Shown here piece after piece: positions 1,038 through 30,259 of a stretch of DNA of 64,000 nt. The notes under the pieces are model-generated. The model was not told the DNA's origin. It searched no databases and worked only from the letters and a program-made list of their open reading frames with translations. The DNA lies in contig JANXRG010000017.1 of assembly GCA_025353105.1 (NCBI GenBank), positions 1 through 64,000 on the forward strand, in the 5' to 3' direction. The position numbers were made by a program, and so were the translations under genes. This DNA is from Verrucomicrobiota bacterium (GTDB lineage: Bacteria; Verrucomicrobiota; Verrucomicrobiia; Chthoniobacterales; SZAS-18). Each line of letters starts with the position of its first letter. Within the stretch, counting starts at the first letter, position 1.

Positions 1038-1043
1038 CGACGC

Positions 1044-6681: not shown

Positions 6682-6707
6682 CGAACGAAGCGTCTGCCTT
6701 TGCCGCG

Positions 6708-8866: not shown

Positions 8867-8877
8867 TCATTCGCCGC

Positions 8878-9955: not shown

Positions 9956-10687
9956 TCAACCGTGCCAGGCGCTGTCCACGATCAATCCGTCACGCATCGT
10001 GTGAATCCAGTCGCAGGCTTGCGCGATCGCGGGATTGTGCGTGACCAGCAGCAGCGCCTTCCGCTCCCGGTGCACGAGATCCTTCAAGAGCGCAAAGACG
10101 CGGGCCGAATTCGCGGTGTCCAGATTCCCGGTCGGCTCGTCCGCGAGGATTACCGCCGGATCGTTCGCCAGCGCCCGGGCGATGGCCACGCGCTGCTGCT
10201 CTCCACCCGAGAGCGCGCGACTGGAGCGATCGGCCTTGTCGCTCAGCCCCACGGCGTCCAGCAGACCGGCGGCACGCTCGCGCATTTCGCCGTCGGTCGA
10301 GCCACCCAGCCGTCGCATCGGGATCACCACGTTCTCGATCGCCGTGAAATCCTGCAGCAGGAAATGAAACTGAAAGATGAAGCCCAACTCCTCGTTTCGT
10401 CGGGCGGAAAGCAGGTCATCCGAGAGGGTCGCAATCTCTTCCCGTCCGATCCAAAGCGTCCCGGCATCGGGGCGATCAAGCAGCCCCAGGATGTAGAGCA
10501 GCGAGCTCTTCCCGCAGCCGGAGGGTCCGACCACCGCGTGGACCTCGCCCGGATTTATGGCCAGCGAAACCCCGCGCAGGACGTGCACGCGCGATTCGTC
10601 CTCGCCGAGGTACTTCTCCAGCCCATGGCAGGCGAGCGAGGAGGCGGTGTCGTCCATGGGAACGCGGGCGCGCATTGCCTTGGTCAC
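9956..10687 (-). CDS. ABC transporter ATP-binding protein (LolD/MacB type)
   Basis: A 243-residue ATPase subunit: Walker A GPSGCGKSSL, Q-loop FQFHFLLQDFTA, signature ALSGGEQQR, Walker B AVILADEPTGNLD and H-loop LLVTHNP. The GNLD tail and short length are typical of the MacB/LolD/FtsE group, which power mechanotransmission rather than ordinary pumping. GTG at 10687 overlaps the permease stop (GTGA) and is my chosen start; ATGs at 10675 and 10657 are alternatives. It is the last gene of a five-gene exporter operon. Confidence 0.92.
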   Translation of the reverse strand: MTKAMRARVPMDDTASSLACHGLEKYLGEDESRVHVLRGVSLAINPGEVHAVVGPSGCGKSSLLYILGLLDRPDAGTLWIGREEIATLSDDLLSARRNEELGFIFQFHFLLQDFTAIENVVIPMRRLGGSTDGEMRERAAGLLDAVGLSDKADRSSRALSGGEQQRVAIARALANDPAVILADEPTGNLDTANSARVFALLKDLVHRERKALLLVTHNPAIAQACDWIHTMRDGLIVDSAWHG

Positions 10688-11940: not shown

Positions 11941-12010
11941 CGCTTCGCTCGAAAACTCGAATTACCAAGGACCAAACGATTGAACAAATCGCCTGCCGCC
12001 ACGGAGCTGA

Positions 12011-12063
12011 TGATTTCGTCCTTCATCATTCGTTCGGGCTTCGTCATTCTGGTCTCGTCATTC
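12011..12063 (-). repeat. Degenerate GAATGACGA direct repeats in the exporter operon
   Basis: Read on the minus strand, this stretch holds GAATGACGA twice (12055-12063 and 12041-12049) plus the variant GAATGATGA (12023-12031), with GACGAAATC after it. The first unit starts in the last sense codon (GAA) of the adaptor gene and includes its stop. I recall similar GAATGACGAA-rich spacers in Verrucomicrobiota intergenic regions. No coding function is evident; it could affect mRNA between adaptor and permease. Confidence 0.55.
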
Positions 12064-13299: not shown

Positions 13300-13335
13300 A
13301 AATTCCCATCCGGGACAAACCGCGCGGGGGTTCCT

Positions 13336-14676: not shown

Positions 14677-16007
14677 TTCCGGTTCGGCTTTGCCGTCGGA
14701 GCGACGACCTTCGGATCGACGGATCCCATGGCCCGCTCGAGGCGGGCAACCGCGTTAAGATATCCGTAACGGCCGGCGAGTTCGAGCAACCGTGCGCGGG
14801 TCAGGTCCACCTGGCCCTGCAAAAGATCGAGCTGGCCCGCGAGCCCCGCGTCGAAATTACCGGTCGCGAGGCGCAACGACTCGTTTGCAAGGTTCGCGTT
14901 CTGGCTTTGACCGCGAATCGTTTCTTCGGCTTGGCGCAAGGACTCCAGCGCGGTGCGCACATCGGTCTCGACGGCAAGCTCGGTGGCCCGCAACACCTGC
15001 CGCGCCGCCGCGCCGCGCGCCTGCACCGCCCGCACGCGGCCGGGCGTGGCCAGACCGTCGAAGAGCGTCCACGTCGCGTTGATCCCGATTGTATAGCCGC
15101 TGAAGTATTCCTTGGAGACGGCGGGATTAGGCTCGCTGAAAAGCTGATAGCCGGCGAATCCGTTGACCTGCGGCCGCGTGCCGGATTTCTCGACGATGGT
15201 CTGCCGTTCGAACACTTCGATATCCAGACGCCGCGCCTCGAGCTCCGGACGCGTGGACATCGCCCGCGCCAGGCAGTCGTTGAGTTCGTAACGCCGGGGC
15301 GTGTAATCCAGCGCTCCGGAGATCACGAAATTCGGGAGCCGCTGGCCCGGCTTCAGCGTCACGCCCATCACTTGGGCCAGCTGCAGGTACGCCGTGGCGC
15401 GGTCGGCCTCGGCCTGATACAACAACGGCCGCTCGTTTGAAAGCGTGACCTGCGCGCGGCTCACGTTCAGCGTGGCGACCGTCCCGGCGCGCAAACGATC
15501 CTGCTGGTCGCGCAACTGGGACTCCAGTAATTGCACCGCCTCCCGCCGCACCCGCGCCGATGCGTCCGCGAACAGGACGCGATAAAACGCGAGCTTCACG
15601 TTCAGCGTCATCGTCTCGATGGCCGCGAGAAAATTCTTTGTCGCGATCTGTTCGCCGGTCCGCGCGATGGCGATGCGCTCGCGCACCGCTCCAGCGGAGT
15701 ACAGACTTTGCGTCAACGAAGCGGAGACAGTGTAGTCCTGCGGCCGGTTCGTGTTGATTCCACCGCTCGTCGCGAGACTCTGTTGGCGTTCCTGAAAATA
15801 ACCGTCGGTGCGCAGCGTCGGGATCGCCCCGGCCCGTGCCGTGGTGATGTTCGCGCGGGCCAGGTCGATCTGCTTGGCCGCGATCTGGGCGTCGGGATTC
15901 TGCTGCCGGGCCAACTCCAGGCAGTCCCGCAGCGAATACCGCAATTCGGCCCCGGCGAGGGTCGCCGGGAGGAGCAGCAGCACGCCAAAGAGAAGTCGGA
16001 ATTGCAT
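14673..16007 (-). CDS. TolC-family outer-membrane efflux protein (first of a tandem pair)
   Basis: A 444-residue protein: signal peptide MQFRLLFGVLLLLPATLAGA, then LRDCLELARQQNPDAQIAAK, the usual first-helix start, and a second half beginning LNDCLARAMSTRPELEARRL. ATG at 16007 is chosen because the signal peptide starts there; the frame upstream to 16079 is Arg/Pro-rich. It heads the exporter operon and faces the oxoamine synthase gene across 92 bases, which must hold promoters for both directions. Confidence 0.88.
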   Translation of the reverse strand: MQFRLLFGVLLLLPATLAGAELRYSLRDCLELARQQNPDAQIAAKQIDLARANITTARAGAIPTLRTDGYFQERQQSLATSGGINTNRPQDYTVSASLTQSLYSAGAVRERIAIARTGEQIATKNFLAAIETMTLNVKLAFYRVLFADASARVRREAVQLLESQLRDQQDRLRAGTVATLNVSRAQVTLSNERPLLYQAEADRATAYLQLAQVMGVTLKPGQRLPNFVISGALDYTPRRYELNDCLARAMSTRPELEARRLDIEVFERQTIVEKSGTRPQVNGFAGYQLFSEPNPAVSKEYFSGYTIGINATWTLFDGLATPGRVRAVQARGAAARQVLRATELAVETDVRTALESLRQAEETIRGQSQNANLANESLRLATGNFDAGLAGQLDLLQGQVDLTRARLLELAGRYGYLNAVARLERAMGSVDPKVVAPTAKPNRK

Positions 16008-16099: not shown

Positions 16100-17329
16100 A
16101 TGCTGAAATCCTTTAATCGCCTCTTTGAAAAGACAAAGCCGATCGCGGATCGCTGCCGGGGCGACGCCGCGACCAAGCTCCGACTGAAGTTTTCGCCGTA
16201 CTATCACGTCATCGAGACCCAGGGTGAGGGCATGGAAATGACCGAGCGTGGGGGGCGTCCGACGGTCATGATGTGCAGCAACGAATACCTCGGCCTCAGC
16301 CGCCATCCCGACGTCCAGCGCGCCGCGCAGGAAGCCATCGACAAGTGGGGCACGAGCCCGTGTGGCTCCCGCCTGGCCAACGGCACGCGCGCCTACCATC
16401 TCGAACTCGAGGAGGAACTCGCCGCGTTTCTCGGCAAGGAAGCGTGTCACGTCAGCGTCGCGGGCTACATGGCGCAGCTCTCCGTCCTCTCCGCGATCGC
16501 ACAGCGAAAGGACGCCATTATCGTCGACAAGAGCATCCATGCGTCGCTCTGGGACGGCGCGCGCCTGAGCGGCGCTGACATCGAGCGTTTCACGCACCAG
16601 GACATGGCCTCATTGCGCGCGTTGCTCGAGGAACTCGAGCCGGCCCAGGCCAAAGTCGTCGTGATCGACGGCGTCTATTCGATGGAGGGTCACATCGCAA
16701 ACCTGCCGGAAATTTGCGAGCTTTGCGACCAGCACGGCGCATTTCTCGTCCTCGACGATTGCCACGGCTTCGGCGTCCTCGGTCGGGAGGGCCGCGGCAC
16801 GGCAGATCATTTCGGGCTCGCCGATCGCGTCGAACTCATCACCGGAAGCTTTTCCAAATCGCTCGCCAGCACCGGCGGATACATCGCGGGAGACCGCGCG
16901 TTTGTGGAATTCCTGCGCTCGTCGAGCCAGCAAATCATTTTTAGCGCCGCCCTCGCGCCCGCGGCGACTGCCACCGCGCTCGCCAGCCTCCGCGTCATGC
17001 AGCGCGAGCCCGAGCACATCGCAAAACTGTGGGAAAACACACGCTATTATCAAGCCATGTTGCAGGCGCTCGGCCTCGACATCTGGGAAAGCCCCACGCC
17101 CGCCGTTCCCATCGTGATCGGCGACAAGGAGCGCTGTTACTTCTTCTGGAAATCCCTCATGGATCAGGGATTTTTCACGGTGATGTCGATTTCGCCCGGC
17201 GTGCCCGCCGGCAAGGACATGATTCGCACCGCCATCTCGTCGCTCCACACCCGGGAGCAGCTCGACCGATTCGGCGACGCGTTGAAAATCGCGATCAAAA
17301 AATCCGGCTACCGGCCGATGGCCGCCTGA
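16100..17329 (+). CDS. Alpha-oxoamine synthase family enzyme (serine palmitoyltransferase/KBL-like)
   Basis: A 409-residue PLP enzyme of fold type I that condenses an amino acid with an acyl thioester. Seen: CSNEYLGLSRHPDV, SRLANGTRAYHLELEEELA, VDKSIHASLWDG, DDCHGFGVLGREGRG (PLP ring region; DDCH instead of the usual DEAH) and GSFSKSLASTGGY with Lys253 as the PLP lysine. The SFSK...GG form is closer to serine palmitoyltransferases than to BioF. It lies divergent from the exporter operon and converges with a GT4 gene (22-base overlap). A role in sphingolipid-like base synthesis is plausible but unproven; CqsA-like or BioF-like activity is the alternative. Confidence 0.82.
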   Translation: MLKSFNRLFEKTKPIADRCRGDAATKLRLKFSPYYHVIETQGEGMEMTERGGRPTVMMCSNEYLGLSRHPDVQRAAQEAIDKWGTSPCGSRLANGTRAYHLELEEELAAFLGKEACHVSVAGYMAQLSVLSAIAQRKDAIIVDKSIHASLWDGARLSGADIERFTHQDMASLRALLEELEPAQAKVVVIDGVYSMEGHIANLPEICELCDQHGAFLVLDDCHGFGVLGREGRGTADHFGLADRVELITGSFSKSLASTGGYIAGDRAFVEFLRSSSQQIIFSAALAPAATATALASLRVMQREPEHIAKLWENTRYYQAMLQALGLDIWESPTPAVPIVIGDKERCYFFWKSLMDQGFFTVMSISPGVPAGKDMIRTAISSLHTREQLDRFGDALKIAIKKSGYRPMAA

Positions 17330-18570
17330 CCGCGCATCGCGGCCGCCAGCTTCGCCGTGTTTCTTGCGGCGAGAAAATTCTCGACGACCCATTGGTGGGC
17401 GTTGATCCGAATTCGTTCGCGCAACGCGGAATCGTTGACCAGGCGGACAATCGCGTCGGCGAGTGCCACCGAATCATGGGGATCAGCGATCAGGCCCGTC
17501 TTTTCGTGCGCGACCGCCTCCGCCGCGCCGCCACCCGGACTGCTGATGACGCAAAGACCGTGCGCCATCGCTTCGGGAATCACGTTCGGCAGCCCGTCGC
17601 GGTCGCCTTCCGCATCCACGACGCCGGTGTGGAGAAGAACATCCGACTCGTCATACGCGCTCTGCACGTCCGCGGGCGCCATCGCGCCTTCCAACGTGAC
17701 ACCGGAGCCCAGGTCGAGTTCGCCGATGCGAGATTCGAGTCGCGTCCGTTCCGGTCCCTCGCCGATGATCCGCAGCCGCGCATCGATCCCGCGCTGGCGT
17801 AACTCGGCGCACGCCGCGAGTTGCAGAGCATGCCCCTTCTTTTCCACCAGGCGGCCCACCGACAACAGTCGCACATTTTTCGAATCGATCGCCGCCGCGG
17901 GTCGGAGCGGCGCGAGATCCGTCAATCCACGTCGCGCGAGAATGATCTCGGCCGTCCGATCCGGAAAACGCTGCTGGATCGACTCGACATTGGCCTGGGT
18001 CGTGGTGTGGACAAAGCGCGCAAGGCAAAGCTTGTGCGGCAGCAGCGGATCGCCGCCGTGCCGGTAAAGATCGTAGGCGTGTGCCCCAAAACTGAACGGT
18101 TTTCCCAACAGCGCCGAAAGCGCCAGCGCGGTGGTCGCCGGCGCCGTCGCCCAGGCGCCGTGCAGCCAGTCGACATCCTCGCCGTGCTCGGCTCGCGCGC
18201 GAAACTCAGCGGCTTTCCCGAGCGCAAAGACCCCGCCCCAAATCGTCATGAACCAACCCTCGGCATCGCTGGGTCGATGCCGCCAGACCGCGCGGATCCC
18301 GCTCCAGACGAGACGCGGATTCCGCAGCGCCGCAAAAGACGCCCCCGCGCAAATCGAAAGAAATCTGCAACGCAGGATGCGTGGTCCATCCGGTGCGGCC
18401 GGCTCACGGTTGCCCCAGTCCCACAACGGATGCACCTCAACCTCGAGTCCGTGGCCCATCACGCCGCGCATCTCGCGGTCGATGAACGTCTGCGTGAGCA
18501 GCGGATAACGCATCACGAAATACGCGACGCGACGCGACGGCGCGGGGGATGCGGCGGAATCGGGGTTCAC
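17308..18570 (-). CDS. Glycosyltransferase family 4
   Basis: A 420-residue GT-B transferase. The N-terminus has VAYFVMRYPLLTQTFIDREM, typical of colanic-acid WcaL-like transferases. Later blocks are LLSVGRLVEKKGHALQLAAC, LRIIGEGPERTRLE and DGLPNVIPEAMAHGLCVISS, containing the EX7E-type motif. The start is GTG at 18570, overlapping the stop of the acetyltransferase gene (GTGA). Its 3' end overlaps the convergent oxoamine synthase gene by 22 bases. Confidence 0.87.
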   Translation of the reverse strand: MNPDSAASPAPSRRVAYFVMRYPLLTQTFIDREMRGVMGHGLEVEVHPLWDWGNREPAAPDGPRILRCRFLSICAGASFAALRNPRLVWSGIRAVWRHRPSDAEGWFMTIWGGVFALGKAAEFRARAEHGEDVDWLHGAWATAPATTALALSALLGKPFSFGAHAYDLYRHGGDPLLPHKLCLARFVHTTTQANVESIQQRFPDRTAEIILARRGLTDLAPLRPAAAIDSKNVRLLSVGRLVEKKGHALQLAACAELRQRGIDARLRIIGEGPERTRLESRIGELDLGSGVTLEGAMAPADVQSAYDESDVLLHTGVVDAEGDRDGLPNVIPEAMAHGLCVISSPGGGAAEAVAHEKTGLIADPHDSVALADAIVRLVNDSALRERIRINAHQWVVENFLAARNTAKLAAAMRGQAAIGR

Positions 18571-18974
18571 AGGCGTTTGCCCAGGCTGATGACTTCATCC
18601 ACCGCGTAGCCGAGATGCCGGTAGAACGCGACCACGGCTTCGTTTACCGATCGGACCTGGAGATTTATTTTCGGACAGCCCAGGGCGCGGAGCGAATCCT
18701 CCGCCGCCAACATCAGCGCGCGCCCCACGCCGTGGCGCTGCGCATCGGGGTCCACCGCGAGGTAATTGATCCAGCCGCGATGGCCCTCGTACCCGGCCAT
18801 GACGGTGCCGACGACGGTGCCGTCCAGTTCACCCACGAAAAACAGCTCCGGCTGCCAGCTTCTCTTCAATGCGATGTCGCGCACCGGATCATTCCGCGGC
18901 CCATCGAGACCGCAACGCTGCCAGAGCGCGACCACGGCTCTCTCATCGGCGGATTCGAAGCGGCGGATGTTCAT
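18567..18974 (-). CDS. ypeA: GNAT acetyltransferase, YpeA-like
   Basis: A 135-residue N-acetyltransferase. The order MNIRRFESADE, LWQRCGLDGPRNDP, VVGTVMAGYEGHRGWINYLA, the acetyl-CoA loop QRHGVGRALM, GCPKINLQVRSVN and a final VISLGKRL all match the E. coli YpeA pattern as I remember it. Substrate is unknown for this group. It sits between two glycosyltransferase genes on the same strand, 8 bases after the upstream one and overlapping the downstream one, so it may act in the same glycan pathway. Confidence 0.82.
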   Translation of the reverse strand: MNIRRFESADERAVVALWQRCGLDGPRNDPVRDIALKRSWQPELFFVGELDGTVVGTVMAGYEGHRGWINYLAVDPDAQRHGVGRALMLAAEDSLRALGCPKINLQVRSVNEAVVAFYRHLGYAVDEVISLGKRL

Positions 18975-18982
18975 CGAGATCG

Positions 18983-20032
18983 CTAGGCGGAAACTAACTG
19001 GCGGACGCGTTCCACCACCTGTGCCGTGCCGTCGAAAGTCTTGCCGGCAAGATTGGAACGATACTCGTCGAGCTGCGATTCAAACGCGCGCAGAACCCGG
19101 GCGCTGGGCTGGCTCGAGGTGAAGTAATCGCCGTAACCGAGCGCGCGGATGTGCGCCGCGTTGAGAAACTGTTCGAAGAGCATGGGCACGGGAAAACAAA
19201 GGACGGGCTTGCCGTAGTGCAACGCCTCGCAGACCAAATTGTGACCCCCATTCGTCACGGCATACGCGCAGGTCGCGAGATCCTCGAGGATGCGGCGGTC
19301 GTCGTACGGCCGGAAGACGAGATTGCCGTCGCGCGTTTCGTGCTGGGGATTAAAGCCGTACACGCGCACCTCGCGCCCGCAGCCGCGGAGCATTTCCACG
19401 ATCGCCCGCGAGGTCGAGCTCGTCTGGTAGCACAGTACGTGATCGCCCGCCTGCGATCCAATCTGCGTCACGATCCAACGCAACACCGGCGGCAGTAATT
19501 CATCCGTCCGGCCGGCGCGCAGCGGCGGATGGTAGAATGAGACGATGAGATTCTTCTTCGTCCGATCGAAAAGCAGCCGGTCGCTGCCGTAGGCCAGCGC
19601 ATGGGACAATCGCTGGCCGGCCGGCACGTCGTATTCGCACGCGACGAGCAGATGTGAGTGATCGATCGACACGCATTCGAGTCCCGCCGCCGCGCTGGCA
19701 AACGGCAGAAAAAATTCGCGGTCGCACAGCGCGACCGTGGGTTTCCAGGATTTGATCAGGGCGCGGATCTCCCGCTTCACTTGTGGAATCTCCGCGAGGC
19801 GGGCCGCGATTTGCCCAGCGGCGCGGACGATGGAGACGCGGCCCTTATGGTGCGCGGCGGTGCGGAGGACGGGGACCTCGAGGCAGGGAAACTTCCCGGC
19901 GACCGCCGCCGGAACGTGGCCGCCGCCGACAAAATGGAGCTCGTGCTCCTCCGCAAGGCGCGACGCGATGGCGAGCGAGCGCATGATGTGCCCGTGCGTA
20001 TTGCCCATTACGCCGTAGAGGATTCTCGCCAT
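18983..20032 (-). CDS. GT-B glycosyltransferase, MurG/UGT-like
   Basis: A 349-residue transferase with a glycine-rich N-terminus (ILYGVMGNTHGHIMRSLAIA) and a nucleotide-sugar site at the end (TNGGHNLVCEALHYGKPVL then PVPMLFEQFLNAAHI), the pattern of glycosyltransferases related to MurG and UDP-glucuronosyltransferases. Catalytic detail and acceptor are not evident. It leads the three-gene unit with the acetyltransferase and GT4 genes and is divergent from the 20069 gene (36-base gap). Confidence 0.8.
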   Translation of the reverse strand: MARILYGVMGNTHGHIMRSLAIASRLAEEHELHFVGGGHVPAAVAGKFPCLEVPVLRTAAHHKGRVSIVRAAGQIAARLAEIPQVKREIRALIKSWKPTVALCDREFFLPFASAAAGLECVSIDHSHLLVACEYDVPAGQRLSHALAYGSDRLLFDRTKKNLIVSFYHPPLRAGRTDELLPPVLRWIVTQIGSQAGDHVLCYQTSSTSRAIVEMLRGCGREVRVYGFNPQHETRDGNLVFRPYDDRRILEDLATCAYAVTNGGHNLVCEALHYGKPVLCFPVPMLFEQFLNAAHIRALGYGDYFTSSQPSARVLRAFESQLDEYRSNLAGKTFDGTAQVVERVRQLVSA

Positions 20033-20068
20033 TCGCGGTATGAATCACCGGTAACGCCCCGGCCGACC

Positions 20069-20539
20069 ATGAAAAAATACCGCCGACTTCAAACCGCGCT
20101 CGCCGCGTTGGTGGTCGGCACGTTTGCGCTCGGCCTGGTCAGCGCGGTCCGTCCCGGCGGCGAAATCTACCCTTTTGCCTCGTGGTTTTTGTTCTCCCTC
20201 GTGCCGCAGCGGGTGACTTCCTACGAGATTCGCGTGCACGCGTGGGGCGAGCGGGAATTCGATCCACCGAAGCCGTTGATTGAGGTCGGCGGCCTCGTGC
20301 GCAGTCCGCAATCCTCGCTGGTGTATCAGCTCGTGCAGCGGTTTGGCCGGGCCGTTGAATCCGGAAATCAGGCGGACCGGGACAACGCGTGGCGGCTGCT
20401 CCAAGCGACGTTTTCGTCGTCCGTCGACCTGCGCTATGACCTGGTAAAACTCTCGTACGATCCGATGGAGCGCGCTCGAGGGGCACGAATCGAACGAACC
20501 GTCCTGGAAGCGAGCGATCGGGACCGCAAGAACCCATGA
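20069..20539 (+). CDS. Hypothetical membrane-anchored protein
   Basis: A 156-residue protein with one N-terminal membrane segment (about residues 8-27, TALAALVVGTFALGLVSAV), a second weakly hydrophobic stretch (about 33-50) and a polar remainder. I do not recognise the family. ATG at 20069 is preferred over upstream frames, which are antisense to the glycosyltransferase gene. It overlaps the next gene by ATGA, a polytopic membrane protein, so the two probably act together. Confidence 0.6.
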   Translation: MKKYRRLQTALAALVVGTFALGLVSAVRPGGEIYPFASWFLFSLVPQRVTSYEIRVHAWGEREFDPPKPLIEVGGLVRSPQSSLVYQLVQRFGRAVESGNQADRDNAWRLLQATFSSSVDLRYDLVKLSYDPMERARGARIERTVLEASDRDRKNP

Positions 20540-21555
20540 ACCCCTTGCTCCACCAAATTTGTCGGCGCTTGCGGCGCACGCCACGACCCAGCGCAGGCGG
20601 CACGTTCGAATCCATCGCAACGCGGACCGCGCACGCGCAGACGCTGGTGCGCGCCTTCTATGCCTATCTTCTTTTCCTCGCGGCGTTCAGCATCCCGGAG
20701 TTCGGCAGCCTGGCGCAACCGCGCGAACTCAGCCTGCTCTGGCCGGTCGCATGGATCGATGCCGTGGAGCCGATCCGGGGCATTCGCTTCGTGACCGGCT
20801 TCTTTCTCGCCGCCAGTCTCGCGGGTGCCATCTGGCCCGGACCGCGCCTGCTGCGGGTGGCCGCGTTTGTCGGGCTGCTCTGCTTCGTGGCGCTGAAAAA
20901 CTCTGAAGGCAAGATCGGCCACAGCCTGCACCTGCCCGTCCTTGTCGCGCTCGCGTTTGTCTTTCTGCCGCAGGGTTGGCAGCGCCCCGATGCCTCGCGT
21001 CTCATCCGGATGTCGCTGCTCCAGGTTTTCGCGGCGACGCAGGTCCTCCTCCTCCTCACGTACACCATGTCGGGCCTCGGCAAGCTGGGGGGAGGGCTCT
21101 ACGAATGGTTCAGTGGCCAGGCCCATCCGTTCCAAATTGATGGATTTTCCCGAATCGTGGCCGAGCGATTGCTGCAAACCAACTCCAGCAGCGTCCTCGG
21201 GCGGTGGATTATCGACCATCCATGGCTCGGCTGGCCGCTTCTTCCTGGAGCCATCTACTTGCAAACGACCTCGGTCATCGCCGCGTTCCGGCCCTCCCTC
21301 CACCGGTGGTGGGGCGTCGCGCTAATTGTTTTTCACGTGGGCAACGCCTTCATTCTGACCATTTACTTCCCGCACAGCATCTTCCTGCTCGGCTTGTTCC
21401 TCCTGGCGTCGCCCTTTGCGCCGGCGGGCTTTGACGCGCGACAAATTCTGGCGGATTTACCGATTCTATCTGTGTTCTCGCGGGTTACATCCTGGCATTC
21501 CATGGTCCCGGTAACAGCACCCACCAGCAGGAACATCGACGGGTCGGCGCGATAG
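20536..21555 (+). CDS. Polytopic membrane protein, possibly HTTM-like
   Basis: A 339-residue protein with about seven or eight hydrophobic segments (for example YAYLLFLAAFSIPEF, FVTGFFLAASLAGAIW, LLQVFAATQVLLLLTYTM, FILTIYFPHSIFLLGLFLL). The ...YTMSGLGKL... and late WWGVALIVFHVGNAFI pattern recall HTTM/vitamin-K carboxylase-like membrane domains, but the match is weak. It is cotranslated with the gene before it and lies 23 bases before the MGDG-synthase-like transferase. Function unknown; lipid or envelope modification is a guess from context. Confidence 0.6.
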   Translation: MNPLLHQICRRLRRTPRPSAGGTFESIATRTAHAQTLVRAFYAYLLFLAAFSIPEFGSLAQPRELSLLWPVAWIDAVEPIRGIRFVTGFFLAASLAGAIWPGPRLLRVAAFVGLLCFVALKNSEGKIGHSLHLPVLVALAFVFLPQGWQRPDASRLIRMSLLQVFAATQVLLLLTYTMSGLGKLGGGLYEWFSGQAHPFQIDGFSRIVAERLLQTNSSSVLGRWIIDHPWLGWPLLPGAIYLQTTSVIAAFRPSLHRWWGVALIVFHVGNAFILTIYFPHSIFLLGLFLLASPFAPAGFDARQILADLPILSVFSRVTSWHSMVPVTAPTSRNIDGSAR

Positions 21556-21578
21556 AAAGTTATTGTCCCTATTTTCGC

Positions 21579-22835
21579 ATGCGCGTTTTGATTCTCACCT
21601 CCAGCACGGGCGGCGGCCACAACATGCGGGCCCGATCCTTTATTGAATGGGCGCGGCTCGAGCGGCCCCAGCGATTGCACGTGAAGATGCACAAGGCACT
21701 CGAGAGCACGAACGAGCTCCTGGCGTTCGGCGTGCGCGCGTACAACTGGATTCAGCGGACCTATCCAGGACTGCACAACGTCTATTTCAACCTGCTCGAG
21801 GTTGCCGCGCCGTGCGATCGGCCCGCGAAGATTTTCGGGCAGGATCGCTTCCGTCGCGTGCTTGATGAGGAGGAGCCCGATCTTGTGCTGAGCGTGCACG
21901 GCTTCCTGAACCACGGATTTTTCGATCTCGCTCGGCGGCATTTACCCGATGTCCGTTGCGTCACGTACTGCGGCGAATTATTTGGCCGCTACGGGTTCAG
22001 CCGGCATTGGGTGAATCCGAGCGCGGATCTTTTCGTCGGGGCGGTGGAGGAAACCTGCGCGCGGGCCCGCGAGTTGGGCATGCCGGAGGAAGCGTCCATG
22101 GTCGGCGGCTTCCTGCTGCATCCGGCGTTTTACCAGGCGCCGCAAACCATCGCCGAACGCCGGCATTTCCTCGGCGCGAATCTCGCGCTCGACCCCGATC
22201 GCTTCACGCTGCTGTTGTCCACGGGCGAGCACGGGGCCAATAATCACATCGCGCTGCTCACGTCTCTGCGCGACCGCCTCGCCGCGCCTCTGCAGGGTCG
22301 ACTCCAGGTCATCGCGCTTTGCGGCCGCTCCGACGAAACATTCCAAAGCGTGCGCGCGTGGGCCCAAGCGAACCAGCAATTTGCCGTTCGTCCCCTGCCT
22401 TACGCCGACAGCTTCCACATGTCACGCCTGCTGCAATGCGCGAACGCCGTGGTCGTCCGGCCCGGCACCGGCAGCACCAGCGAAGCCATCCAGACCGGCT
22501 GCCCGATTGTCTTCAACGGCATTGGCGGCTTCATGCCGCAGGAGCGCATCACGCTGCGTTATGCGCGCCGCCGCGGTTTCTCGTCGGAAGTGGAGGAAGC
22601 CGGCGATCTGCCGCCGATTCTCACGCCGTGGCTCGAGGACGCGGATGATCTCGGCTATCACGGCAAGCGCGAATGCATGATCGCCGCGCGGCCCAGGCAG
22701 CATCCGCTGGACATTCTTTCCGCCGTGATAAATACACCCCAACGCGGGCCCCGGTCCGAGCCGATGGCGGAGGCCGCCGAGCGCCCCCTGCCCATCAACG
22801 GCGCGGCCGCGGACCCGTCTGCCGCACTGGGCTAA
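21579..22835 (+). CDS. Processive diacylglycerol glycosyltransferase-like (MGDG synthase family)
   Basis: A 418-residue GT28-type enzyme. The N-terminus VLILTSSTGGGHNMRARSF is the GGGH membrane-lipid acceptor block of MGDG synthases and UgtP. The C-terminal donor site is VVVRPGTGSTSEAIQTGCP then IVFNGIGGFMPQE, again typical. These enzymes add galactose or glucose to diacylglycerol at the inner membrane face. The last 40 residues are low-complexity and probably disordered. It is followed by SCP2-like and aminotransferase genes, which fits a lipid pathway. Confidence 0.85.
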   Translation: MRVLILTSSTGGGHNMRARSFIEWARLERPQRLHVKMHKALESTNELLAFGVRAYNWIQRTYPGLHNVYFNLLEVAAPCDRPAKIFGQDRFRRVLDEEEPDLVLSVHGFLNHGFFDLARRHLPDVRCVTYCGELFGRYGFSRHWVNPSADLFVGAVEETCARARELGMPEEASMVGGFLLHPAFYQAPQTIAERRHFLGANLALDPDRFTLLLSTGEHGANNHIALLTSLRDRLAAPLQGRLQVIALCGRSDETFQSVRAWAQANQQFAVRPLPYADSFHMSRLLQCANAVVVRPGTGSTSEAIQTGCPIVFNGIGGFMPQERITLRYARRRGFSSEVEEAGDLPPILTPWLEDADDLGYHGKRECMIAARPRQHPLDILSAVINTPQRGPRSEPMAEAAERPLPINGAAADPSAALG

Positions 22836-22880
22836 CGCCGGCTTTCCGCACGCCGGAAACTCGCGCATGTTGCAGACGTG

Positions 22881-23675
22881 ATGCGCGCCGGAAACGAAAT
22901 GCTGCTCTGCCGCCTGCACCTGCATGCCGTGCTGCCAGCGCTCGAAGCGCTCTCCCGCCTGGTCCCGCAAGCCCGCGACGCGGTCGCGGGCGCGAATTTT
23001 GCGCTCGGCCTGCGCGTCGCGGATGGACCATCAGCGATGGTTACGGCCGCGGACGGCGTGTTGCGCGTCGAGCCGGCCCTTGCCTCGCGCGGCGGCGCGG
23101 TGCTGTATTTTTTCCGGCCGCGGCATCTCAACGCCATCTTTCTGCAGCGCGTGGCGATGCCGCCCCTGCCGGTGCGCGGTTGGTTGCGGTTCGCGAAGCT
23201 GCGACCCTTCCTGCGCCTCGCCAAGGTGCTCGATGCGACCCTCCAGCCGGCCGAGCCTGCGCTCGCGGACGACGAATTCCGGCGGCGTCATTTGCTGCTT
23301 TCGTTTCAGGTCGCGCTGCGAGCCGTGCCGATCGTCGCCCGCGAGGATCCGCTCGCAATGCGGGCGCTGAAATCGACGCCGCCCGGACTGCTCACAATTC
23401 GTATTCCCAATCTCGAATTTGTCGCATGGGTCGAATGGCGGAACGGGGTCTTGCGCAGCGAACTCGGCGAGCCGCCCAGCGCGGCCGATGCCATCGTGAC
23501 CGTGCGCGACGAGGAGACCGCGCGCCTTCTCGTGGCCGGCCAGCTCGATCCGCAGGCGGCCCTTGGGCTGGGTCGCGTGCGAGTCGACGGCCTGATTCCG
23601 CTCGCGGATGGACTCGATGTGTTGCTGCATCGTGTGGAATCGTATCTTGGGGCCCCCGCCCGCGCCCGCTCATGA
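22881..23675 (+). CDS. SCP2-like lipid-binding protein (tentative)
   Basis: A 264-residue soluble protein without catalytic motifs I can name. The C-terminal part (PSAADAIVTVRDEETARLLV, then DPQAALGLGRVRVDGLIPLA) follows the SCP2 sterol-carrier pattern, in which a hydrophobic cavity holds lipid. The middle region, with VLYFFRPRHLNAIFL, resembles SCP2-containing proteins of lipid clusters. GTG (22878) and ATG (22881) are adjacent; I took the ATG. It overlaps the aminotransferase gene by ATGA. A lipid-carrier role is inference. Confidence 0.5.
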   Translation: MRAGNEMLLCRLHLHAVLPALEALSRLVPQARDAVAGANFALGLRVADGPSAMVTAADGVLRVEPALASRGGAVLYFFRPRHLNAIFLQRVAMPPLPVRGWLRFAKLRPFLRLAKVLDATLQPAEPALADDEFRRRHLLLSFQVALRAVPIVAREDPLAMRALKSTPPGLLTIRIPNLEFVAWVEWRNGVLRSELGEPPSAADAIVTVRDEETARLLVAGQLDPQAALGLGRVRVDGLIPLADGLDVLLHRVESYLGAPARARS

Positions 23676-24904
23676 ACCGCCCTGACTTCTCGAAATCCGC
23701 CGCGCTCTTCGCCCGCGCCTTGCAGGTGATTCCCGGCGGGATCTACGGGCACACGAGTCCAGCGCTGGCACTTCCCGGCACGTCACCTTATTACGCCGCG
23801 CGCGCCGAGGGCTGCCGCTATTGGGATGTCGACGGCAACGAGTTCTTGGACTTCATGTGCGCGTACGGGCCCATCGTCCTCGGCTACAATCACCCGGAGG
23901 TCGAGGAAGCCGCCGCGAGGCAGGCGCGCGACGGAAACTGCTTCAATCATCCCACCGGGTTGATGGTCCAGCTGGCGGAGCGGCTTGTTTCGCTCGTCGA
24001 TTTTGCGTCGTGGGCGGTCTTTGGGAAGAATGGTGCCGACATGACAACTTGGTGCGTGCAGGTCGCGCGCGAGCATACGGAAGCAAAGAAGATCCTCAGG
24101 GTCGCCGGCGCTTATCACGGGTCGCACGCGTGGTGCAGCCCGGGCCACGGCGGCTGGATCGATGAGGATCGCGCGCACGTCCATGCGTTTCCCTGGAACG
24201 ATCTCGACGCCTTTCGCGATCTCGTGAAGAAACATCGCGGGGAAATCGCCGGGGTCATCACCACGGCGTTCCACCATCCCGCCTTTGGCGATTCCGTGAT
24301 GGCGGCGCCAGGGTTTCTGCGCGGGATCCAGGAAACCTGCCGCGCCGAAGGGATTGTGTTCATCCTTGACGACGTGCGATCCGGCTTTCGCCTGCATCTT
24401 GGCGGATCGCATCGCGTTCTGGATTTCGAGCCCGATCTGGTCTGCTTCTGCAAAGCGCTCGCCAATGGACACCCAATTTCCGCCGCGCTGGGTCGCAAAG
24501 AATTGCAACCCGCGGCGGGCCGCGTTTTTCTTACAGGCAGTTATTGGAACAGCGCTGTCCCTATGGCGGCAGCTCTTTCGACGCTGATCGTCATCGAACG
24601 CGATGGGGTGATTGAGCGCATTGGGAAGGTCGGCGCGCAGCTGCGCGAAGGCTTTGTCAAGGCCGCCGCGAAACACGCGTTGCCGATTCGCTACACCGGC
24701 CACGATTCAATGCCGTTTATGTCGTTTGGGGACGAAACGAATTTCTTGCGCAGCCAGGTTTTCTGCCGCGAAATGATGCAGTGCGGCGTGTTTCTGCATC
24801 CGCATCACAACTGGTTCCTCTGCGCCGCCCACGAGTCGCACGACATCGCCCAGGCGCTGGCGGCCGTCGATGACGCCATGGCCGCGGCGAAGGCGGCGTT
24901 CTGA
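23672..24904 (+). CDS. Class III aminotransferase, glutamate-1-semialdehyde aminomutase-like
   Basis: A 410-residue PLP enzyme. VIPGGIYGHTSPAL, YWDVDGNEFLDFMCAYGP and YNHPEVEEAA are the family N-terminus; VFGKNGADMTTW, GAYHGSHAWCSP and FILDDVRSGFRLHLGG (Asp binding the PLP nitrogen) follow; the PLP lysine is in VCFCKALANGHPISA. Its resemblance is to HemL, but context (GT28-like and SCP2-like genes, overlapping start) suggests an aminotransferase on a lipid or sugar substrate, not haem synthesis. The long open frame upstream of 23672 is a shadow. Confidence 0.85.
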   Translation: MNRPDFSKSAALFARALQVIPGGIYGHTSPALALPGTSPYYAARAEGCRYWDVDGNEFLDFMCAYGPIVLGYNHPEVEEAAARQARDGNCFNHPTGLMVQLAERLVSLVDFASWAVFGKNGADMTTWCVQVAREHTEAKKILRVAGAYHGSHAWCSPGHGGWIDEDRAHVHAFPWNDLDAFRDLVKKHRGEIAGVITTAFHHPAFGDSVMAAPGFLRGIQETCRAEGIVFILDDVRSGFRLHLGGSHRVLDFEPDLVCFCKALANGHPISAALGRKELQPAAGRVFLTGSYWNSAVPMAAALSTLIVIERDGVIERIGKVGAQLREGFVKAAAKHALPIRYTGHDSMPFMSFGDETNFLRSQVFCREMMQCGVFLHPHHNWFLCAAHESHDIAQALAAVDDAMAAAKAAF

Positions 24905-24932
24905 CGCAGCGACTTTTCCGTTGGCAAACGCA

Positions 24933-25373
24933 ATGAACCCAAGACCACTTCGGACTTTGCTCTTGGCACTGGCGCTTGTCACAAACGCGATTGCCGGCGA
25001 TGCCCAAAGAAGCGATGCCAGCCTGGCCGCCGGACTACTTGGAACATGGGAGGCCCCGAAACGTCACGGTTCAAAGAAAATCGTCGTCCAATCGACCTAT
25101 ACCAAAGATGGCCTTGTCGTGGGGTTTACGACGTCGGCGGCAAGATACCCGGACGGCACGACAAAGGAGATTAGAATTAGGGTTAGCGCTCGTTGGAAAG
25201 TCCAAGACGGCGTCCTGTTCGTATCTGACTACAAGACCGAACCTCCCGGTCTCACGCCGAAAGGCTGGGCGCAACGATATAAGATTCTTTCACTCGGGGC
25301 AGACATGGTCTTGTTCCGGGCCCTTAGTGACGGCTCCGAGCAGTATCGGCGGAGAACGAAGCCAAATAGGTGA
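24933..25373 (+). CDS. Small secreted hypothetical protein
   Basis: A 146-residue protein with a likely signal peptide (MNPRPLRTLLLALALVTNAIAG). The mature part begins SLAAGLLGTWEAPK and is rich in short beta-type segments, a pattern seen in lipocalin-like or stress-related periplasmic proteins (LLGTWE... then ARWKVQDGVLFVSDY). Family not recognised. ATG at 24933 lies 28 bases after the aminotransferase stop. AT content is somewhat higher than in its neighbours, so it may be a more recent arrival. Confidence 0.62.
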   Translation: MNPRPLRTLLLALALVTNAIAGDAQRSDASLAAGLLGTWEAPKRHGSKKIVVQSTYTKDGLVVGFTTSAARYPDGTTKEIRIRVSARWKVQDGVLFVSDYKTEPPGLTPKGWAQRYKILSLGADMVLFRALSDGSEQYRRRTKPNR

Positions 25374-25783
25374 GATGTACCTAATGGGACAGACCGGGTG
25401 CGACTTCGACGATTCGCGCCGACGTTGCCGCGGCGGCCATTCATTTCACCCAAAATACCGAGGGTTTGGCAAACCCGGGAAATACTTCCCCTCTATCCGG
25501 AGCGTCCCGGCAGCGACGCGTTGAAGGCTCGCCAGCAGCGAAGCAGATGCACCAACGGACCTTCTCTTTGCGAGATCGTGGCCTTTGGAGTGCGGTTGTC
25601 TGCTACCGCTTTTCGGACGGAACGTATTCAACCGAGGAAAACTCCAGTCTTCGAAAATCGGCCTTTGTTTCGGCCCACCGTTATCTGCGCCGCCAAGCCC
25701 TGACGGAGCAAGCTCCGTTGCCCAAAACGGAGGCAGGCCTCCGCACTCCATAGGCGTCAGTCGATCAACTCGACGAGATCCGG
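25374..25783. other. Non-coding gap with a repeat element
   Basis: This 410-base gap separates convergent genes and has no credible coding frame; short open frames in it are spurious products of the repeat described at 25586-25750. The first 200 bases show nothing I can name. No terminator with a T-run is visible. Confidence 0.6.
25586..25750. repeat. Paired REP-like inverted repeat with internal hairpins
   Basis: The left arm (25586-25620) begins TGGAGTGCGG and carries GCGGTtgtctgctACCGC; the right arm (25715-25750), read in reverse complement, begins TGGAGTGCGG and carries CGGAGGcctgCCTCCG. Both arms continue into a similar T-rich/GG tail. A further perfect hairpin, ACGGAGC-aa-GCTCCGT, lies at 25702-25717. 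Two palindromic units in opposite orientation are the build of a bacterial BIME/REP pair. I recall the TGGAGTGCGG...CCTGC...CCGC unit as common between Verrucomicrobiota genes, where it creates false open frames. Confidence 0.65.
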
Positions 25784-26587
25784 TCAGCGCTCGCGCTGCC
25801 CATAATGGCGCAGAAGGATGCGCTCCATCCATCGGGCGGGAAGAATCCTCTCGGCCAGCGGCGCGAGGCGCGCTTGCAAAAAATCGCCGATGACCCTCAT
25901 GGGCGGGGCATCGGACGCGCCGACCAGCCGGCAGATTTCCGCGCCAACGAGCTCCGGGCCGGGTGCTGCCTTCATGCTTGTGACCATTGCCTCCCAGGCG
26001 GCGCGCGGTCGTCCGTCCGGCGGCGGTTGCATCACGTCGTTGAAGTGGGTTTGGATGTCGCCCGGCTGGAGATCCACGATTCGGACTCCGCTGCCGGCGA
26101 GTTCAAGCCGGAGCGTCGCCGTGAGCGATGCGAGCGCGGCCTTCGCGGCGGAATACGGTGCCATGTACGGAATGGGCAGTCGCGCCGCGAGCGAGGTGAC
26201 GTTAATGAGCAAACCGCGTTTCTCGCGGAGATCCGGGAGCGCAAGTTGAATGAGCTGGAGCGGCCCAAAGAAGAGCGTTTCAAACTGCAGACGCACTTTT
26301 TCGATCGACACATCCGCGATCGACTCAAACCACCCATCACCCGCGTTGTTGATTACAATCTCGAAACCCCCGCTTTCGGCTTTTGCTCGGGTCCAGGCCG
26401 CGTGAATCGAACCCGGCTGGTTCAGTGAAAGTTCGAGTGGATGAAAATTCGAGAGGTCGGCCGGCAGGCGTTTGATTTCGCGCGACGTACCCCAGACTTC
26501 GCATCCCGCCAAACACAATGCCCGCGCCGTGGCGAGACCAATGCCCGCGCTTGCGCCCGTGAGGAGAACGCGAGTTCGTGAGCCCAT
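25784..26587 (-). CDS. Short-chain dehydrogenase/reductase (SDR)
   Basis: A 267-residue classical SDR: cofactor loop LLTGASAGIGLATARAL, FEIVINNAGDG, the catalytic Ser in NVTSLAARLPIPYM and Tyr/Lys in APYSAAKAALASLT. It ends with a hydrophobic/basic stretch (RILPARWMERILLRH). It is the last gene of a unit with a ketoacyl synthase and an ACP-dehydratase fusion, so reduction of a 3-ketoacyl-ACP (a FabG-like job) or of a lipid ketone is likely. ATG at 26587; the frame upstream is antisense shadow. Confidence 0.87.
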   Translation of the reverse strand: MGSRTRVLLTGASAGIGLATARALCLAGCEVWGTSREIKRLPADLSNFHPLELSLNQPGSIHAAWTRAKAESGGFEIVINNAGDGWFESIADVSIEKVRLQFETLFFGPLQLIQLALPDLREKRGLLINVTSLAARLPIPYMAPYSAAKAALASLTATLRLELAGSGVRIVDLQPGDIQTHFNDVMQPPPDGRPRAAWEAMVTSMKAAPGPELVGAEICRLVGASDAPPMRVIGDFLQARLAPLAERILPARWMERILLRHYGQRER

Positions 26588-26610
26588 GGGATGTGAACCT
26601 TGAGCCGCGC

Positions 26611-27891
26611 TCAAGCCGCGCGCGCGCCGTCTGCCCACCGTTGCAGCACAATCGAAACATTCGCCCCGCCGAATCCACTCGAATTGTTCAGCGCAATCGT
26701 CGGCGCCGCGTCGACCGGCTTCGTCACGATCGAGACCCCTTCGCACATCGGATCCAATTCCGTGATCTTCGCGGAGATCGGCGTGAAGCCTTCGTGCAAC
26801 GCCAGGCAGCAAAACGCTGATTCCATCGCGCCCGCAAGCGAGAGGCCGTGCCCAGTCAAGCTCTTCGTGCTACTCACCAGCGGTCCGGTACCCGCCGGAA
26901 AGACCTTCTTGATCGCCTCGATTTCCGCGCGGTCGCCGAACTCCGTCGCGGTGGCGTGCGCGTTGAGATAGTCGACGTCGCCGGCGGTGATTTGCGCGTC
27001 GGTCAACGCTAGTTCCATCGCGCGCGCGAGCCCGCTGCCTTCCGGATCGGGCGCGAGCACGTTGTAGCCGTCCGACGCCTGGCCCCATCCGGTCACCTCA
27101 GCGTAAATGGTCGGCGCGACCCGTTGTCGCGCGTGTTCGAGTTGCTCCACGACCAGGACCGTGGCGCCGCCTGTGCCGACAAACCCGTCACGTTTCTGGT
27201 CGAACGCGCGTGGCGCAAGATCGGGATCGGTCTGCGGGCTGAGGGCGCGAATGCCGGCGAAGGGCAGGATGTTGAATTTGTTGCAGTCTTCCGCGCCCAC
27301 GACGAAGACAATTTTTTGCCGGCCATCGCGAATCAGATCGAGGGCGGCGCCCAGCGAATGCGCGGAAGATGCACACGCGCTGGAAAATCCGAGCGACGCG
27401 CCCTTGATGTGAAACGCGGGCACGAGGTTCACGTAGAGCGAGCCCGGAATGCCATTGATGATGCCCATGGGCGGGCAGCGCTGCACGCCGCGTGTGACCA
27501 TGGCGTGGAGATTTTCGTAAGCCATCCACATCGAGCCGCCGGAGGCGCACATCAGGCCCGTGTCCACGTTGGACACGAGCGCGGGCGGCAAGCCGGCATC
27601 TGTGATCGCCTCCTGCATCGCGAACCACGCATAGAGCGAATTAGGCGACATCGGCCGTAATGTCTCGCGGGGAATCTTCTGCGTGGACGGATACTTCCAG
27701 TCCTCGAATTCCGCGGTTGGAAAATCAAATCCTTTGATCGTGCCGGCGAGTTTGATCGGGGCTTTGATCACCTCGAACTCGGGAAACACGGCAATGCCAT
27801 GGCGACCGGCCCGCAGATTCGCGCTGACCTCGGGACGGCTGTTGCCGATGCTCGTGATGAAGCCCAGGCCCGTGACAACGGCGCGATGCAT
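26611..27891 (-). CDS. Beta-ketoacyl-ACP synthase (FabF-like)
   Basis: A 426-residue condensing enzyme of the thiolase fold. Start VVTGLGFITSIGNSRPEV; nucleophile Cys173 in FSSACASSAHS; first catalytic His in YLNAHATATEFGD; and STKSLTGHGLSLAG with the Lys and second His. The last block departs from the usual TGHxLGAAG, and the LGFSSACASSAHS context differs from FabF (TACATGAH), so this is probably a dedicated synthase rather than the housekeeping FabF. It lies 23 bases upstream of the SDR and 90 downstream of the ACP-dehydratase gene. Confidence 0.88.
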   Translation of the reverse strand: MHRAVVTGLGFITSIGNSRPEVSANLRAGRHGIAVFPEFEVIKAPIKLAGTIKGFDFPTAEFEDWKYPSTQKIPRETLRPMSPNSLYAWFAMQEAITDAGLPPALVSNVDTGLMCASGGSMWMAYENLHAMVTRGVQRCPPMGIINGIPGSLYVNLVPAFHIKGASLGFSSACASSAHSLGAALDLIRDGRQKIVFVVGAEDCNKFNILPFAGIRALSPQTDPDLAPRAFDQKRDGFVGTGGATVLVVEQLEHARQRVAPTIYAEVTGWGQASDGYNVLAPDPEGSGLARAMELALTDAQITAGDVDYLNAHATATEFGDRAEIEAIKKVFPAGTGPLVSSTKSLTGHGLSLAGAMESAFCCLALHEGFTPISAKITELDPMCEGVSIVTKPVDAAPTIALNNSSGFGGANVSIVLQRWADGARAA

Positions 27892-27981
27892 ATGATGATT
27901 CGAAGCAATGTGAGCGGTGCCCGGCGGGCCGGGTTCCGACCGCCATAAGGAAACACCCCGCGGCGCGGAGTGCCAACCAAA

Positions 27982-28923
27982 TCAGACCTTCACGACTTCG
28001 ACGTGGCCATTCAGGCCCGCCACCGACGCCGGCACCGGTGCCTCGAAGCCGCGCTCGCGCGCTTCGACCAGTTGCTCCGCTTGTTCGGCGATGCCCGCGC
28101 CAAACGCGAGCATGAGGCGGCTCACTTCCGCCACGCGATGTCCATTGCACTTTACCGCGCCTTTGAAAATTGCCAGGGGCTCGCGCACACGATCCACTTC
28201 CACCGTCATTTCCAGCAGGTCGCCCGGCTTGGCGCGACGATAAAAATGCGCTTCTTCCATCGAGGCAAAGACGACGTCGGTCTTGGCATCGACGTCCTTA
28301 CCGGCCACGGACTCAAGAATCCAAAGGCAACCCGCCTGACCCAGCGCTTCGAAGACGATGCTCGCTGGGAAAACCGGATGATCCTTGAAGTGCCCTTCGA
28401 GAAAATATTCATCGCCGCGCACTAAATATTTGGCGTGGATAATCTTATCTTCAATCATTGCCTCGTCGAGAAAGAGGAAGGGCGGTTGTTGGGGCAGAAT
28501 GGTGACGATTTCCTCGCGATTGTAGTGACGGATCAATTCTTCGGATCCGTTCGAATCGCCGCCTCCACCGCTGAGTTTCCGCGCGATAAAACTTTTCACT
28601 TCGCCGAGCGTGCGAATGGAGCGCAGCTCCTCGTTCTCAATGCTGATCCCGAGTGTCTCCTCGATCGACAGCACGATCTCCAGCATGGTGAGCGAATCGA
28701 CGCCGAGATCTTTGATCAGCTCCGTCGCATCGCCGGCATCGGCGAGTTTCATGGGCGACTCCGGCGGCATGTGTCGCTCGATGATCCCGTAGACGATCGT
28801 GGGAACTTCTTCGGCATCGCCCGTTTGGCGAAAACGAACGGCGGCTTCGATTGTGGCGGGACTGCAGCGCTTCAGGGCGGTGCGCAGTTCCTGGACTTGT
28901 TCTTCGGTGAACGGAGATGACAT
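27982..28923 (-). CDS. Acyl carrier protein fused to a FabZ-like 3-hydroxyacyl-ACP dehydratase
   Basis: A 313-residue two-domain protein. Residues about 40-118 are an ACP with LIKDLGVDSLTMLEIVL, where Ser77 should receive phosphopantetheine. After a Gly-rich linker (about 118-128) comes a hot-dog dehydratase: LPQQPPFLFLDEA, FLEGHFKDHPVFPASIVFE and LGQAG, with His178 and Glu192 spaced 14 residues as in FabZ. The usual GHFP is GHFK. Carrier and dehydratase on one chain suggest channelling. ATG at 28923 heads the operon; the 190-base gap to the divergent GT4 gene must contain its promoter. Confidence 0.88.
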   Translation of the reverse strand: MSSPFTEEQVQELRTALKRCSPATIEAAVRFRQTGDAEEVPTIVYGIIERHMPPESPMKLADAGDATELIKDLGVDSLTMLEIVLSIEETLGISIENEELRSIRTLGEVKSFIARKLSGGGGDSNGSEELIRHYNREEIVTILPQQPPFLFLDEAMIEDKIIHAKYLVRGDEYFLEGHFKDHPVFPASIVFEALGQAGCLWILESVAGKDVDAKTDVVFASMEEAHFYRRAKPGDLLEMTVEVDRVREPLAIFKGAVKCNGHRVAEVSRLMLAFGAGIAEQAEQLVEARERGFEAPVPASVAGLNGHVEVVKV

Positions 28924-29113
28924 CAGCTTGCAGTTTCGGTGAGGGAAGAATAATGCACGGTTTGCCCTGTCTGGCGACCCACAAAGATCGTCGAAATGCG
29001 GCCCAAAGGAATTACCAAATGCAGCAACGTTCGCGCCGCTTCCGCACGAGAATGCATCTTTCAATCTTGAACCCGCGTCACCACGCCCGCGTTGTGATCA
29101 ATTCGAGGAAATC

Positions 29114-30259
29114 GTGACGGGAATGATTTATTTCGTCACCCATGAATTCGCGCCGTTCCGGGGGGGCGGGGCTACTTATGTTCAGGAAGTGGCGCGCGCC
29201 GCGGCTAATCTCGGCTATCCGATTCAGGTCATCGCGCCCGATTATGGACAGACGTTTCACGCCTCGGATGCAGAGCTGCCGTACCGGATCGAACGGGTCC
29301 CTTGCGATGGACGCCTGACGCCGGCGGGGATTTGGTCGCTCGCGCGCGCGCTCGCACAGCGCCGCGAGGCCCTCCGGAATTCGCCCGTTGTCCTGCTCAG
29401 CGTCGGGGCCCACATGGCGATGATGTCATTCATCCTGTTTTCTGGCAGACGATGGTCGCGACCGGTGATCGCCCTTTTTCACGGTTCGGAAGTCCTGCGA
29501 TTCCGGAAGCATCCGTTTTGGCGCCACGTCGCCGCACGGGTGTTTCCGTCGACAAAGCCCGCGTGCTCATCGCATTACGTCGAGCACCTTCTTCGTGAGA
29601 ACGAACTCTACCCGCGGGAAACGCCGTTCCTACTCGCACCGTGTGCCTGTCCGTCGGCCGTCGTGGCATCGGCGCGGTCAGTCGGCGATGCCCGTTGTCC
29701 GAATCCGGCGGGGTTTAGACTTCTCACCCTCGCGCGATTGCACCCGCGCAAGGGCCAGCATCTCACCGCCCGCGCCCTCGGATTGTTGCCCCACTCCGCC
29801 AGGAAACGCGTGCGATACGAGATCGTCGGTGATGGTACCGCGGCCTATCGTCGGGTGGTCGAGCGAGCCTGCGTCGCCGCCGGCATCGACTTCACGATTC
29901 GGAGCGCCGTGCCGCCCGAAGAATTGACGGCGGTCTACTCTGCCTGTGACGCGTACATCATGACCAGCGTGGCCTTGCCGAACAGCGTCGAAGGTTTTGG
30001 CATCACCTATTTGGAGGCATCCATCCACGGGCGTCCAGTCATCGCATTCCGGACAGGCGGAGTCGAAGAGGCGGTCGTGGATGGTGAAACCGGCCTGGTT
30101 GTTCCCGAGGGCGATCTTCCCGGGGTGGTCAACGCGGTGCTCCGCCTAATGGACGACCCTGCGCTTGCGGCGAGATTGGGTCAGAAGGGACGTGAATTTG
30201 CCGCGGGATTCCACTGGGAAACTGCCGCGCGAGTGCTTTGCGAGGCGGCGCTCTCCTAG
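29114..30259 (+). CDS. Glycosyltransferase family 4
   Basis: A 381-residue GT-B transferase. N-terminal [19 protein letters not shown] is the glycine-rich acceptor loop; [36 protein letters not shown], and [20 protein letters not shown] with the EX7E-type site follow. GTG at 29114 is preferred because GAGGA lies 4 bases before it; ATG at 29123 is the alternative. It is divergent from the acyl-synthesis unit and converges with mnmG (4-base overlap of the ends). Confidence 0.87.

Follow-up and report, generated by a model that had tools for sequence, protein, structure and literature searches.

Proteobacterial serine palmitoyltransferases (SPTs) need a dedicated acyl carrier protein (ACP) and prefer the acyl chains that AasR loads onto it (PMC9386255), and Spt-like genes have been turning up in many phyla, Verrucomicrobiota included (PMC11334938). 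The closest described systems are the aasR-cerR-acpR-spt (+cerS) loci of Caulobacter and E. coli BL21, the latter comprising a fatty acyl-AMP ligase, an epimerase, an ACP, and an SPT, with YghO nearby. Judged from its position, YghO is presumably the orthologue of the ceramide synthase CerS, a reading supported by the YghO homologues that adjoin SPT in other Verrucomicrobiota. The window analyzed here is a stretch of 64,000 nucleotides from a Verrucomicrobiota genome. It holds a cluster that resembles the Caulobacter and BL21 loci in combining an SPT-type alpha-oxoamine synthase (AOS) with a dedicated ACP and a reductase, and in having genes for envelope transport and for enzymes of sugar or head-group addition. 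It differs from them in that AasR and CerR gave no convincing match within the 64-kb window and CerS was not found in the genome, while in their place the cluster has a FabB-like ketosynthase (KS), an SDR reductase, and a dehydratase (DH) fused to the ACP, and its AOS belongs to a distinct deep clade. The KS, ACP-DH, and SDR genes are read here, with moderate confidence, as supplying the acyl chains in a Verrucomicrobiota gene cluster that would make a sphingoid-type lipid bearing sugars.

The trio (25784-28923) forms a three-gene minus-strand operon encoding the SDR reductase, the FabB-like KS, and the ACP fused to a FabZ-type dehydratase (Table 1). An initial annotation had claimed such an operon at this place, and its coordinates and activities agreed with the open reading frames and with the Pfam matches, which were ketoacyl-synt N and C for the KS, PP-binding and a FabA-like hotdog for ACP-DH, and adh_short for the SDR; NCBIfam agreed with Pfam on the activities. 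The reading frames are free of internal stops and are separated by 90 bp (ACP-DH to KS) and 23 bp (KS to SDR), and alignment with solved structures and relatives showed complete catalytic residues in all three proteins. The top structure matches of the KS were KAS I (FabB) enzymes, with which it shares the active site. Unlike FabB, it has the motif TGHGLSLAG and a cluster context of its own, and it lies in a Verrucomicrobiota KS clade apart from both FabB and FabF with full support. The motifs had been described as altered. That holds for TGHGLSLAG in the KS and GHFK in the dehydratase, which differ from E. coli, but not for SSACASSAH, which is the ordinary FabB active-site motif (SSACATSAH in E. 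coli FabB) and therefore not altered. In the alignment, TGHGLSLAG and GHFK were common to most members of the KS and dehydratase clades across the phylum, and they are clade signatures.

Table 1. Features of the cluster in the window.
Feature	Position	Strand	Composition, residues, and basis
Exporter block beside AOS	9956-16007	-	ABC ATPase, LolC-like permease, periplasmic adaptor, two TolC-type outer-membrane proteins
AOS, serine-palmitoyltransferase-like	16100-17329	+	Profile, structure, tree, co-occurrence
GT4a, GT4 glycosyltransferase	17308-18570	-	Adjoins AOS in window and other families
Small GNAT acetyltransferase	18567-18974	-	Passes PRK03624
MJ1255-type glycosyltransferase	18983-20032	-	Pfam Glyco_trans_1_3, 204 bits; synteny
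Small conserved protein, 156 aa	20069-20539	+	N-terminal hydrophobic segment; orthologues by eye in L073, L055, L089
w20, conserved protein, probably membrane, 339 aa	20536-21555	+	Alignment A2
MGDG/UgtP-like glycosyltransferase	21579-22835	+	Kept in cluster in other orders
SCP2-fold lipid-carrier protein (predicted)	22878-23675	+	Profile against PDB SCP2, 3.5e-5; AlphaFold, Foldseek
Class III aminotransferase, GSA-aminomutase-like	23672-24904	+	PLP lysine present; kept in f1, G131, and G210 clusters
SDR reductase	25784-26587	-	TGASAGIG, NNAG, S-Y-K catalytic residues; adh_short 122 bits, alignment
KS, FabB-like beta-ketoacyl-ACP synthase	26611-27891	-	Cys-His-Lys-His intact; Pfam, NCBIfam, alignment, tree
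ACP-DH	27982-28923	-	ACP (DSL phosphopantetheine site) and FabZ-type dehydratase (GHF His, EALGQ Glu); Pfam, alignment
GT4b, GT4 glycosyltransferase	29114-30259	+	Divergent from trio; synteny kept across class; Pfam, synteny

The ACP domain of the fusion carries the DSL motif and resembles AcpR only weakly (E about 1e-4). The SDR is a putative ketoreductase and/or 3-keto-sphingoid reductase by sequence; it scored 120 bits against the 3-ketodihydrosphingosine reductase model NF049977 (cut-off 400), with other SDR families scoring equal or higher. In the dehydratase domain, FabZ models were best, and the model search gave no FabA match. A role in making unsaturated fatty acids, as in FabA/FabB or FabN/FabO systems, would fit the KS scoring highest against KAS I structures, but it is very improbable for the trio, as the dehydratase has the FabZ-type Glu, the genome has fatty-acid desaturases, and the set, which most of the phylum lacks, is linked with glycosyltransferases and the AOS. 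The FabA/FabB type was rejected on the first two of these points.

At 3.72 Mb and 97.6% completeness, the genome holds fatty-acid synthesis genes beyond the trio. The initial annotation had proposed a dedicated, non-housekeeping unit, to be abandoned if these were the only fab genes in the genome. A separate FabF on contig C89 passes TIGR03150 and a separate LpxC-FabZ on C15 passes PRK13188, which removes that objection for the KS and the DH, and housekeeping FAS II was ruled out as the role of the trio. Other KS or KS-like genes lie on C99, C10, and C119. On C99 (12000-25000; L041), a FabF-like KS has a flavoprotein of the geranylgeranyl-reductase family on one side and a protein of 164 aa, SRPBCC-like by eye, on the other; this is possibly another specialised unit. 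The region on C10 (18000-36000; L042) is an aryl-polyene (APE)-like cluster with a KS, a KS-like second subunit, an ACP, a flavin halogenase-like protein, an MMPL protein fused to an acyltransferase, a FabZ-like protein, and an AMP ligase. The combination of KS, DH, KR, and ACP is the chemistry of APE clusters, and the trio has all four, in line with the earlier suggestion of an aryl-polyene-like product. The window cluster is, however, without the AMP ligase, chain-length factor, MMPL exporter, and acyltransferase that such a pathway has and that are found on C10; the trio is therefore not the aryl-polyene locus of this genome, and it is extremely unlikely that it makes an aryl polyene or a similar polyene.

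The gene set around the trio is wider than first described and spans at least 16100 to 30259. The adjoining GT4 gene was found as annotated. The neighbor called MGDG-synthase-like does resemble diglucosyl-diacylglycerol synthases, though its score of 24.4 bits narrowly misses the 25-bit cut-off of Pfam. A repeat had been reported between the two blocks; the segment tested (25540-25775) occurs just once in the genome. The AlphaFold model of the SCP2-fold protein had a pLDDT of 88, and Foldseek matched it to SCP2/UbiJ. Neither w20 nor the small protein adjoining it had a convincing match in Pfam or PDB, and scans for tRNA and Rfam families were uninformative. Next to the exporter block, the window (345-9933) holds UDP-galactopyranose mutase, rml-type, GT2, and heptosyltransferase-like genes.

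The AOS has the conserved PLP Lys, His stack, Asp/His, and Arg. Its best profile was the Bacteroidota SPT model NF047600 (396 bits, below the equivalog cut-off of 640), and its best structure was the Sphingobacterium SPT 3a2b (324 bits). In trees, it fell together with the SPTs, and the split from KBL/BioF had full support; it sat on a long stem, away from the KBL and BioF-like enzymes of its own genome. The sulfonolipid synthase SulA/CapA of Bacteroidota is also an AOS that uses acyl-ACP; its diagnostic residue is Lys281, where SPT-type enzymes have Ala (PMC9304779). The window AOS has Ala283 at this position, the whole sampled AOS clade has Ala there in the alignment, and identity with SulA was ruled out on this residue.

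No match to a YghO-type ceramide synthase was found in the genome at E<=1e-8. Such genes do occur in other families of the order, where a canonical SPT and a YghO-type CerS were adjacent in 7/7 genomes checked (G011, G013, G014, G023, G030, G038, and G045), and ordinary ceramide synthesis therefore probably exists in Verrucomicrobiota. That canonical SPT belongs to the same enzyme superfamily as the window AOS (about 40% identity), and the window genome has neither it nor its CerS neighbor. The AOS clade showed no tie to CerS (overlap in 5 of 45 genomes, p = 0.18). FemAB-like GNATs on C107 and C1 were considered as ceramide synthases and ruled out, since blastp showed no similarity to YghO. 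A fatty-acid desaturase lies beside one or two FemAB/GNAT-like proteins on C107 (22760-25260; L176) and on C16 of the genome G003 (L177), an arrangement that is kept in the family and could serve lipid N-acylation or modification. A plasmid search for SPT gave no lead.

Among 57 close genomes, the fusion was confined to the window's own family (6 of its 7 genomes), and KS orthologues were present in all seven genomes of that family, with 57%-identical ones in family f8. A scan of genome contigs with the fusion protein brought up a single true relative, L045, which seems to be identical with the G003 record, plus Flavobacteriia FabZ matches. A KS of the trio clade was found in 53 of 388 Verrucomicrobiota genomes and an ACP and/or DH match in 49. 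Removal of four genomes with a match to one domain gave 45 genomes with the ACP-DH pair, a few of which have adjoining unfused ACP and DH. The unit is thus present in about 12% of the sampled genomes and missing from most of the phylum. The AOS was also found in 45 of the 388 genomes; both occurred together in 43, with two singletons each way (Fisher 3e-52, a statistic that ignores phylogeny). The ACP-DH pair was present without an AOS of this clade in G172 and G216, and G001 has the trio genes and no AOS orthologue. The distance from AOS to KS was below 20 kb in 23 of 39 genomes; the two were on different contigs in 12 and truly distant in 4.

Families f1, f17, f19, and f21 keep the gene order, and in them the AOS adjoins GT4a or lies close to it. 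The order in the window's family is GT (MJ1255), w20, MGDG-like GT, SCP2-like protein, aminotransferase, SDR, KS, ACP-DH, and GT4. The core in f17 is GT4b, ACP-DH, KS, SDR, MGDG-like GT, and GT4a, followed by an AOS orthologous to that of the window (54-57% identity). The complete set was found in G131, a one-contig genome of another family (f19), where 13 kb separate the AOS from the KS; the contig is GC-rich, and cluster genes were placed on it by tblastn mapping. In f1, the neighbor of the AOS is a tripartite exporter block of LolCDE-like ABC, adaptor, and TolC genes; synteny of the exporter with the AOS was seen in L094 and L164, and the ABC and adaptor part accompanies the AOS in the f17 genome G340. 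At L072 (G001 C42:2631-7455), where the AOS is absent, the KS and SDR directly adjoin two TolC genes that take the place of ACP-DH, which links the trio to the exporter block. These comparisons bore out the earlier view of a dedicated acyl unit tied to glycosyltransferases, as the trio was linked with GT4 genes and the MGDG-synthase-like gene. As a reading of the product, that view stood for the acyl unit and the glycosyltransferases and fell for the aryl polyene, and it had missed the SPT-like AOS, which is the best pointer to the kind of product.

Relatives of the trio genes were also seen in other settings. Unfused ACP, dehydratase, and KS genes stand in a row at L128, L129, L135, and L130 (f22; DH-KS in f26) with no glycosyltransferases or AOS close by, and the fusion may have arisen from such an arrangement. 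A second member of the KS clade, accompanied by an ACP only, was found at L120, L121, L125, L127, L132, and L167, mostly in genomes with the full cluster. The KS clade therefore also does other jobs, as these relatives have no GT or AOS nearby.

Two other readings of the neighborhood were weighed. The trio may make a special acyl chain (e.g., hydroxy or unsaturated) for a glycolipid or LPS-like glycan, with the AOS belonging to a separate neighboring pathway. Glycosyltransferases are the nearest neighbors of the trio everywhere, the rml-type, glf, and heptosyltransferase-like genes lie at 1-10 kb of the window, and the trio and AOS are apart in G001 and on separate contigs in several f1 assemblies other than that of the window. 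This separation of roles is nevertheless unlikely, as two unrelated pathways would hardly account for the co-occurrence in 43 of 45 genomes or for the proximity of AOS and GT4a in several families. The aminotransferase raises a further option, a beta-amino fatty acid pathway in which the beta-ketoacyl-ACP made by the KS would be converted to beta-aminoacyl-ACP by the GSA-AM-like class III enzyme. A GSA-AM-like aminotransferase of this kind acts on a beta-ketoacyl chain in MycA of mycosubtilin synthesis, giving the beta-aminoacyl product. The gene is syntenic in f1, G131, and G210, and the G210 cluster, with AOS, KS, ACP, and SDR, has no dehydratase. However, no aminotransferase was seen in the f17 clusters, which keep the KS, ACP-DH, SDR, GTs, and AOS, and this option is given a slim chance.

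The trio travels across the phylum with an SPT relative, glycosyltransferases, and, in some families, an exporter, and the cluster therefore probably makes an unusual glycosylated sphingolipid-like molecule by an undescribed route. Gene content, intact residues, linkage, and co-occurrence were observed, and from these we infer the substrates, the step order, and the product. First, the KS would condense an acyl chain from housekeeping fatty-acid synthesis with malonate on the private ACP domain, leaving the chain two carbons longer and on that ACP, and would thus stand in for the AasR of Proteobacteria. The SDR (or housekeeping FabG) would then reduce the beta-ketone and the fused dehydratase would remove water, followed by enoyl reduction in trans or by none; the cluster has no enoyl reductase, so the chain could arrive at the AOS saturated (with a reductase acting in trans) or as the 2-enoyl form. 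In the third step, the AOS would join the acyl-ACP to an amino acid (serine is the probable one) in a condensation that yields a 3-keto-2-amino lipid. The ketone would then be reduced, possibly by the same SDR, because 3-ketodihydrosphingosine reductases such as BT_0972 are SDRs (PMC9278070). The glycosyltransferases would add sugars, the SCP2-fold protein would carry the lipid, and the ABC-adaptor-TolC system would export it. Points against this pathway are the AOS score under the SPT cut-off and its long stem, the missing CerS, the lack of a convincing AasR or CerR match in the window, the deviating genomes G001, G172, G216, and G210, the placement of AOS and trio on separate contigs in the other f1 genomes, and the KS relatives seen in other settings. 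A more specific version, given a rather small chance, is that the AOS uses the trans-2-enoyl chain on the private ACP directly, so that the position-4 double bond would be set at condensation and not by a later desaturase, and that the base is glycosylated without N-acylation. If true, this would be a sphingolipid class made without a ceramide synthase.

No description of a KS/SPT cluster of this kind was found in the literature searched (most subscription journals lay outside it). The complete cluster is present in one-contig genomes, and it points to another route of acyl supply, in which a FabB-like KS would directly extend the chain while it is bound to a private fusion of ACP and dehydratase. 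As an SPT-like enzyme occurs in this lineage without any known ceramide synthase, SPT counts alone would misname its lipids.
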